From: Myxococcaceae bacterium
GTDB lineage: Bacteria > Myxococcota > Myxococcia > Myxococcales > Myxococcaceae
Reading direction: 5' to 3'
Length of the DNA: 43,552 bases
Assembly: GCA_016926755.1 (NCBI GenBank)
Contig: JAFGNZ010000089.1
Location: 1-43,552 of the forward strand
A model generated the notes under the pieces. It was not told the DNA's origin, ran no database searches, and saw only the letters and a list, made by a program, of their open reading frames with translations. Of this stretch, positions 41,728-42,299 are shown piece by piece (within the stretch, counting starts at the first letter, position 1; the number at the start of each line of letters is the position of its first letter). The position numbers were made by a program, and so were the translations under genes.

Positions 41728-41801
41728 GCGCGATTAGCTCAGCTGGATAGAGCGTTGGCCTCCGGAGCCAAAGGCCACAGGTTCGAATCCTGTATCGCGC
41801 G
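41728..41801 (+). tRNA. tRNA-Arg (anticodon CCG)
   Basis: The 74 bases fold as a full cloverleaf: acceptor GCGCGAT/ATCGCGC, D arm GCTC/GAGC, anticodon stem TTGGC/GCCAA with loop CTCCGGA (anticodon CCG, reading CGG), T arm ACAGG/CCTGT with TTCGAAT, and discriminator G. CCA is not encoded. It is followed by a strong terminator and a broken integrase. Confidence 0.96.
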
Positions 41802-41809
41802 CAGAGCAA

Positions 41810-41861
41810 GGGCCCGGAATCGATGGGGGAACTCCCCACTGGTTCCGGGCCCTTCGTTTTT
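41810..41861 (+). terminator. Intrinsic terminator after tRNA-Arg
   Basis: A perfect 10-base stem GGGCCCGGAA (41810-41819) and TTCCGGGCCC (41843-41852) closes a loop that holds a smaller GGGG/CCCC hairpin, and TTCGTTTTT follows. This is a textbook intrinsic terminator for the tRNA transcript. Confidence 0.9.
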
Positions 41862-42029
41862 CCCGCTCGGGGCTTGCAGCAAGGATGCAGCAAGCGCGAT
41901 CTGGGCCGGCCTGGGGAGAGGAGGCTGACCCACCGCAGCCGTCTCGAATGGCTCCGCCCTCTTGGGCGCCTCGCGGGCCGCCGAACTGGGCGCGCAGCCC
42001 CAGGTTGAGGCTGTCCACCTCTTGCCGGA

Positions 42030-42299
42030 GGCGGCGATGGGGATCACGTCGGTATGCCCGCCCTTCGTGGTATCGCGCTGCCAGGAGCGGCTGACGGTCA
42101 GCAGGTGGCGCGTGATCTGGCTGACGTTGCTTGGGTGGGCGGGAGAATTGACCGAGGAGTTGTCGAGCCACCACCGCAGCAACTCCGCGAGCGTCCCGCC
42201 GCCGTCTTCGGGTATTCGCTTCTCCAGCCCCAGACGTTGACGCTCGGCCTTCCGCTCCAGCTCTTCTGCGATGCGTCGGGCCTCGGTTCGCGCTCGATT
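42030..42299 (-). pseudogene. Internally deleted tyrosine integrase remnant
   Basis: In one minus-strand frame the sequence reads as an N-terminal integrase part (EARRIAEELERKAERQRLGL, then GTLAELLRWWLD) and passes directly into a catalytic-core part (LLTVSRSWQRDTTKGGH, then DVIPIA). The two pieces lie about 100 residues or more apart in intact phage-type tyrosine recombinases, so the middle is missing. No credible start precedes the N-terminal piece, and the catalytic C-terminus with the RHR-Y residues is absent downstream. The remnant points toward the tRNA-Arg, the usual integration site arrangement. The flanks (41862-42029 and 42300-42445) hold no other recognisable gene; a GCAGCAAG direct repeat occurs at about 41876-41895. 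Confidence 0.72.

Follow-up and report, generated by a model that had tools for sequence, protein, structure and literature searches.

The stretch of DNA analysed here (the window: 43,552 bases, the whole of contig C158 of a Myxococcaceae bacterium) very probably ends in a left attachment site (attL) that remains from an integrative element, now decayed, targeted to tRNA-Arg(CCG) and belonging to a family whose integrase genes contain the att core. This reading draws on an integrase remnant, att copies, arm sites, a reading frame that is split between the two element ends in relatives, and the unsplit form of that frame in Myxococcus phage Mx9. The window is an ordinary decayed island end; the interesting part is the split-integrase anatomy.

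Integrase remnant beside tRNA-Arg(CCG)

The restored target gene on the attL side, tRNA-Arg(CCG) (41728..41802, plus strand), was identified with ARAGORN and is the sole full-length match in the 9.59-Mb genome. It contains most of a 48-nt att core (41758..41805, plus strand) that runs from the anticodon arm to 3 nt beyond the tRNA end, and is followed by a hairpin and T-run (41804..41859, plus strand; -41.1 kcal/mol, z -6.66) that is probably the tRNA terminator, although a simple terminator scan listed none. The antisense strand of the hairpin falls within an integrase tail frame. As originally predicted, a tyrosine integrase remnant lies here with its C-terminal end facing the tRNA; it consists of three minus-strand pieces of one protein, at 41737-42299.

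The remnant was identified by comparison with the integrase of Hyalangium versicolor H56D21 (genome G041), designated P0001, which follows tRNA-Arg(CCG) in that genome. P0001 is intact (468 aa from its likely start, in a 540-codon frame) and matches Phage_integrase (E 1.7e-23) and the integrase family phrog_1 (E 1.5e-68). The piece farthest from the tRNA (42089..42299, minus strand) covers approximately aa 29-99 of P0001, in the core-binding region, with 86% DNA identity over aa 33-99 (42089-42287). It overlaps by about 15 bp the match of the middle piece (42033..42103, minus strand; aa 217-240, 89% DNA identity), which contains TTKGGH, the motif of the catalytic beta-hairpin lysine. The third piece has 76% DNA identity over aa 377-430 (41850-42030), and tblastn extends this tail antisense into the tRNA, to aa 468 (41737..42030, minus strand). 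Lost from the remnant are the N-terminus and two internal stretches of about 117 and 136 residues; the frame is preserved at the first deletion junction and shifted at the second. The prediction that the middle and the catalytic C-terminus were gone needs correcting: in addition to the core-binding part, the beta-hairpin lysine and the tail after the catalytic tyrosine are kept. The deletions remove the presumed catalytic positions R199, H333-x-x-R336, H359 and Y369 and leave K230 in place.

Searched in its own frame, the remnant matched no integrase profile of PHROGs, NCBIfam or Pfam, and a Pfam scan of the tail frame alone also gave none. The original prediction had named such an outcome as its refutation, yet intact homologues at the same site identify the remnant. 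Its identity is settled because it was compared with intact homologues at the same tRNA, while the profile libraries are blind to it, and on sequence grounds we regard an integrase remnant at tRNA-Arg(CCG) as confirmed. The silence of the three libraries would also suit a decayed host gene or a chance similarity that was never part of a mobile element, as would the absence of MscS, the left neighbour in the window, from beside the tRNA in the short stretches of relatives (which reach about 1.4-2.2 kb upstream, and 14 kb in G037), so that the wider locus may vary anyway. This explanation is refuted by an intact integrase that stands at this very position and points the same way, with DNA 86-89% identical to the remnant across about 270 bp, together with an att copy that has a backbone gene behind it and the arm sites described below, and we consider it extremely improbable.

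Examination of the tRNA locus in relatives, as had been suggested, recovered intact integrases: the three near-full-length matches to P0001 at 78% identity or more (G041, G006, G035) all lie at tRNA-Arg(CCG) or beside a duplicate of its 3' end. No intact close relative of P0001 was found in the genome of the window: the matches that come next are short, apart from one at 35% identity that lies in a 405-codon frame of contig C209. Decay at this tRNA is common. Integrase pieces beyond the att-proximal tail are found in G037, G039, G040, G007 and G025, as well as behind the second att copy of G041, and the att-proximal tail alone remains in G036, G038 and G003.

Several further features of these integrases were observed. 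In G037, an arm pair and an HTH peptide occur together with a 91-aa fragment of integrase (84% identity to P0001) at C1:687601-690052, on a different contig from its tRNA-Arg site; these may come from the inside and the right end of the G037 element. By eye, the catalytic domain at locus L047 (2222-3625; about aa 295-317 of P0001) has a zinc-ribbon-like CxxxxC...CxxC insert, and a similar one is present in the Int proteins of phages Mx9 and Mx4 (L132, L134). A second integrase type, 34-37% identical to P0001, lies at the opposite side of copies of this tRNA in G035 and G063 (L060 3059-4246 and L058 10213-11325, both plus strand), so several integrase types share this target.

Element ends, probable arm sites and probable cargo

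The second copy of the tRNA 3' end that had been predicted is present in the same genome, on contig C112 rather than rightward in the window, which is a whole contig. It is identical to the core over 48 nt from the anticodon arm onward (C112:14256-14303, minus strand) and represents the attR copy. A search of the genome gave a single complete tRNA-Arg(CCG) and a single partial one, the remaining matches being other tRNA-Arg genes, and the locus shows features of tRNA-targeted tyrosine-integrase islands: an intact tRNA, a displaced 48-nt 3' copy and an integrase inside, here as remnants only.

A CNNM/CorC gene lies about 3.3 kb beyond the C112 attR, convergent to the tRNA. In G006 a single contig carries the tRNA, 46 kb of DNA, a tRNA copy and, after about 14 bp, CNNM, and in G040 CNNM is about 120 bp behind the tRNA copy. 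Among 74 genomes with a match to the tRNA region (more than one match in 16 of them), a survey took in the tRNA match of 58 and the best CNNM match of 54. The two genes are on one contig in 46 genomes, convergent in 34 of these with gaps of 1.3 to 97 kb and otherwise arranged in 12. Because CNNM follows the tRNA in relatives, C112 is most likely the right side of the tRNA-Arg(CCG) locus. The CNNM gene behind the C112 fragment supports a fragment on the same replicon and in the same orientation, with an island between. Across these two separate contigs, we infer that the C158 attL and the C112 attR bound one and the same element.

Three observations concern the locus more generally. Of the 12 non-convergent genomes (G024, G026, G029, G021, G054, G057, G058, G060, G069, G070, G071 and G072), several have the tRNA behind CNNM on the same strand, as if the segment were inverted. 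In G036, part of the tRNA region recurs at a distance of 75 kb, in inverted orientation and with 75% similarity (L089; C2:2166221-2166352, plus strand). Inside the right end on C112 is the gene for a 560-aa protein with DACNG, DACNH and DAC domains (L042, 15388-17070, minus strand), which has low third-position GC and whose architecture is that of a DisA-like cyclic dinucleotide synthase.

A heptamer pair, TGCAGCA-N4-TGCAGCA, is retained at both own ends, and its offsets from the core are fixed. At attL it is TGCAGCA-AGGA-TGCAGCA (41875..41892, plus strand; +117/+128 from the core). The pattern occurs three times in the 9.59-Mb genome, as against zero occurrences of the reversed pattern. The right-arm pair is at exactly -134/-123 in five of six attRs (own, G041, G040, G006 and G007) and at the third tRNA copy of G035; the sixth attR, that of G063, lacks it, and the element there carries another integrase type. 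In G063, G025 and G077, no heptamer pair accompanies the second copy of the tRNA. The left-arm pair lies at +115-118/+126-129 at eight sites (own, G036, G037, G039, G041, G006, G007 and the middle G035 copy). A single heptamer is present at the left arm in G038, G025 and G003, and none in G040, G042, G063, G077 and the first G035 copy. Across the window and 21 loci (434,505 bases), all 16 pairs are at att sites.

In 96 genomes, a slightly longer form of the pair occurs 36 times, compared with 10 for its reversed pattern. Of these 36, 30 were examined for a neighbouring tRNA: 12 follow a complete tRNA (Arg-CCG or Gly-CCC) that ends 69-72 bp before the pair, or 110-111 bp for second pairs, 1 follows half a tRNA, 8 precede a T-arm by 156-159 bp, and 9 have neither tRNA nor T-arm at the expected distance. 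The paired heptamers are probably integrase arm-type sites, to which the integrase would bind, although these 9 and the second tRNA copies that lack a pair speak against it. With the motif, element ends become computable, including those where the integrase itself has broken down. An example is the third own pair: it adjoins tRNA-Gly(CCC) (L174; C247:243-407) together with scraps of the window DNA to the right of the integrase, on the DUF2381 side (48 bp at 96% and 83 bp at 89%), and we read this site as another such element in a more advanced state of decay. With integrases at the same tRNA in relatives, the att copy on C112 and the arm sites, the past mobile element first proposed for tRNA-Arg(CCG) is supported.

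That the two ends belong to a single element has a serious rival in tandem accretion, wherein two stacked elements of one family left the C158 attL and the C112 attR and the opposite end of each is gone. Likeness between the hairpin regions of the own ends is only 62%, compared with 94% within the G041 pair and within the G006 pair, a difference more readily explained by two elements or by a long history than by a single recent insertion. Stacking would also account for two paralogous cargo copies, since the second-kinase fragment on C112 is 80% like that of G041 and the copy on C404 is 89%, near the 88% of the window cargo. It is visible elsewhere, in the three tRNA copies of G035 and in G041, where an intact element stands before an older integrase scrap with DUF2381 and kinase, and the poorly assembled interior of the own element could conceal further copies. 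On the other hand, the genome has just one full and one partial tRNA-Arg(CCG) copy, and the third of its three arm pairs is at tRNA-Gly. We therefore hold stacking to be possible but somewhat improbable, and retain one element bounded by both ends as the preferred reading.

To the right of the remnant are a DUF2381 (TIGR02268) gene (42446..43363, plus strand), identified by a profile match, and the start of a Ser/Thr kinase gene truncated by the contig end (43386..43552, plus strand; 55 aa, below the Pfam cut-off), which is 96% identical to the start of an intact G041 kinase. The original prediction left open whether this pair was cargo or host DNA; its repeated arrangement in G041, on C247 and in G002 and G005 suggests that cargo is most likely. 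The window DUF2381 gene and kinase start have 88% DNA identity to the G041 pair, which is located between the second att copy and CNNM, right behind the integrase scrap and followed by a second kinase, and a related trio, kinase-kinase-DUF2381, is enclosed by paired arm sites in the ~8-kb elements of G002 and G005 (domains confirmed with Pfam for G002).

The alternative that these are host genes beside the landing site gains from the abundance of DUF2381, a paralogous family with 16 matches here and up to 57 elsewhere, which means that one such gene near an att site is not rare. Proximity to att is consequently weak evidence, and it is the repeated arrangement that persuades: the pair in G041 lies behind an integrase scrap in the interval between att and the host gene, scraps of it lie by the own tRNA-Gly site, a related trio is inside two 8-kb elements, and no match to it was found (E 1e-8) in the other 20 of 22 att stretches compared. 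A host origin is thus unlikely, and the pair is best treated as probable cargo of the element.

In a comparison of 19 genomes, DUF2381 (PF09544) reached 57 copies per genome, and the family was absent from 14 control genomes; a literature search on the names DUF2381 and TIGR02268 found no paper. The kinases matched many PADLOC kinase models (PD-T4-6, mad6), but these are general kinase matches and we make no defence claim. The ~8-kb elements of G002 and G005 (L169 and L168 being the two loci) have both arm pairs and no tRNA in the 11-14 kb fetched, and their integrase appears to be aimed at a non-tRNA site. Elements of 9 kb at tRNA-Gly in G073 (L170) and at tRNA-Arg in G035 (L060) share a DUF3987 protein and small HTH proteins, a size and content that recall phage satellites or mobilizable elements.

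An att core inside the integrase gene

Family-wide, 49 matches to P0001 were identified, 30 of which were fetched as loci; in 21 of these, no more than about 520 nt separate the end of the integrase from a complete tRNA. The tRNAs are of six kinds: Arg-CCG, Arg-GCG, Gly-CCC, Pro-CGG, Pro-GGG and Met. The integrase frame is open into the tRNA in 19 of the 21 loci (stopping inside it in 13 and past it in 6), compared with 12 and 7 for the other two frames, a count over related loci that includes the truncated integrase of G037 and is not a formal test. The att core in relatives is therefore inside the integrase frame, with the catalytic part and tail at attL and the frame resuming at attR; of this frame across the core, of the Mx8/Mx9 type, the window keeps only the tail piece. 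Beyond the tRNA motif, the attR frame is exactly 124 codons long in G041, G040, G035, G073 and G074 and ends in an HTH_17 domain (E 3e-13 to 1e-15 in all five tested). This does not hold in G006 (where the HTH frame has a stop, after 11 codons) or in G007 (157 codons, the HTH frame being absent), which counts against the split-frame reading, nor in the own genome (112 codons), where the C112 frame departs from the family after 70 matched residues and enters the DNA of a truncated kinase. Having lost the HTH, the own copy is a broken descendant and not a working member.

Differences at codon positions 1/2/3 across six arms are typical of coding DNA in the HTH part (135/63/197), with values of 174/164/221 in the linker and 108/97/89 in the tRNA-derived part. 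The integrase tail after the catalytic tyrosine has no third-position excess (24/15/23, 20/15/17 and 25/24/28), so that conservation of this tail as a protein is unsupported, and the tail, although in frame, may be kept open rather than kept as sequence. A mycobacteriophage protein annotated 'excise' also matches the attR HTH (E 7e-4), for which reason we term it excisionase-like; HTH_17 is a broad DNA-binding family, and a role in excision is a guess.

Both domains are found in one gene in phage Mx9 (AY247757), whose 548-aa Int has the integrase domain at 227-321 and HTH_17 at 489-537, and nucleotides 1-42 of tRNA-Gly lie identically between them, at codons 465-479. The catalytic part of Mx9 Int is 37% identical to P0001 aa 114-386 (E 6e-30) and its C-terminus is 44% identical to the attR peptide (E 2e-5), and thus both halves match Mx9 Int in the right order. 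We read Mx9 Int and the elements of relatives, from this comparison of proteins, as the unsplit and split forms of one design. Four Myxococcus phage records match P0001, two of Mx9 and two of Mx4, with Mx8 not among them; a viral collection scan with P0001 gave no relative, and plasmids gave short HTH matches only, in 3 records.

These observations lend themselves to the following scheme, the inferred parts of which are the binding of arm sites, the excision role of the HTH, movement in trans and the assignment of both ends to one element. In intact relatives, the integrase would bind the paired arm sites on either side of the anticodon-arm core and recombine the element circle with the chromosome. 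As the integrase gene itself holds the core, with the catalytic part on one side and the C-terminal excisionase-like HTH on the other, insertion would leave the catalytic part with an antisense-tRNA tail at attL and the HTH stranded at the far end. In the window's genome, the integrase N-terminus and two internal stretches are gone from attL and the HTH from attR, but the cores and arm sites survived, with DUF2381 and the kinase as probable cargo. Such an element could not move itself; because cores and arms are kept, it could at most be mobilised in trans by a related integrase.

Relation to known systems and implications

According to a review (PMC6070905) that lists Tojo (1996) and Magrini (1999) among its references, attP of Mx8 is within the intP coding sequence, insertion supplies a new 3' end to int, and Mx9 is similar in principle. 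The present elements resemble Mx8 in an att site within coding sequence and a changed int 3' end, whereas Int of Mx8, the case that has been studied best, has integrase domains and no HTH_17 in Pfam, which counts against the main reading. They share with Mx9 a tyrosine integrase with C-terminal HTH_17 and tRNA sequence between the domains; however, Mx9 is a phage aimed at tRNA-Gly whose gene carries the tRNA 5' part, whereas the elements here are aimed at tRNA-Arg(CCG), their ends carry the tRNA 3' part and the hairpin, and the window copy is broken.

The element also resembles a CIME, defined as an element that keeps attL and attR and has lost its integration gene (PMC5704250), in that cores and arm pairs are intact at both own ends and the integrase is broken, and in that newer elements are stacked at the tRNA side, as in G041. 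The term also implies descent from a conjugative or mobilizable element with loss of the transfer genes, and movement in cis, and the likeness here extends to kept ends and a broken integrase. With tRNA islands of the Islander type the element shares an intact tRNA, a displaced same-strand 3' fragment and an integrase adjoining the tRNA, and differs in that its integrase is broken and the fragment is on another contig; the Islander signature excepts integrases that extend across attP and names Mx8 and SSV (PMC4383910).

As far as these sources go, an att site within int and an altered int 3' end (for Mx8 and, in the review, Mx9; PMC6070905) and CIMEs (PMC5704250) are already in print. New to us are the breadth across tRNAs within one integrase family and the HTH on the far side of att. 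A literature search, narrower than a full survey and with the original Mx8 and Mx9 reports outside it, found no fused or split integrase-excisionase of this kind.

The window itself adds one more fossil island end. The family, on the other hand, offers an explanation for many myxobacterial integrase genes that end in tRNA-derived peptides, as well as a testable idea: insertion may fix its direction by cutting the recombinase gene from the excisionase-like domain. Extended to the family and its several tRNA targets, this becomes a switch wherein the cut leaves a tRNA-encoded tail and the element stays locked in place for as long as the HTH is not supplied from elsewhere. We propose it tentatively, at a little below an even chance. 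If it is true, elements like that of the window, whose integrase is broken and whose ends are intact, would be what the insertion switch leads to in the long term.
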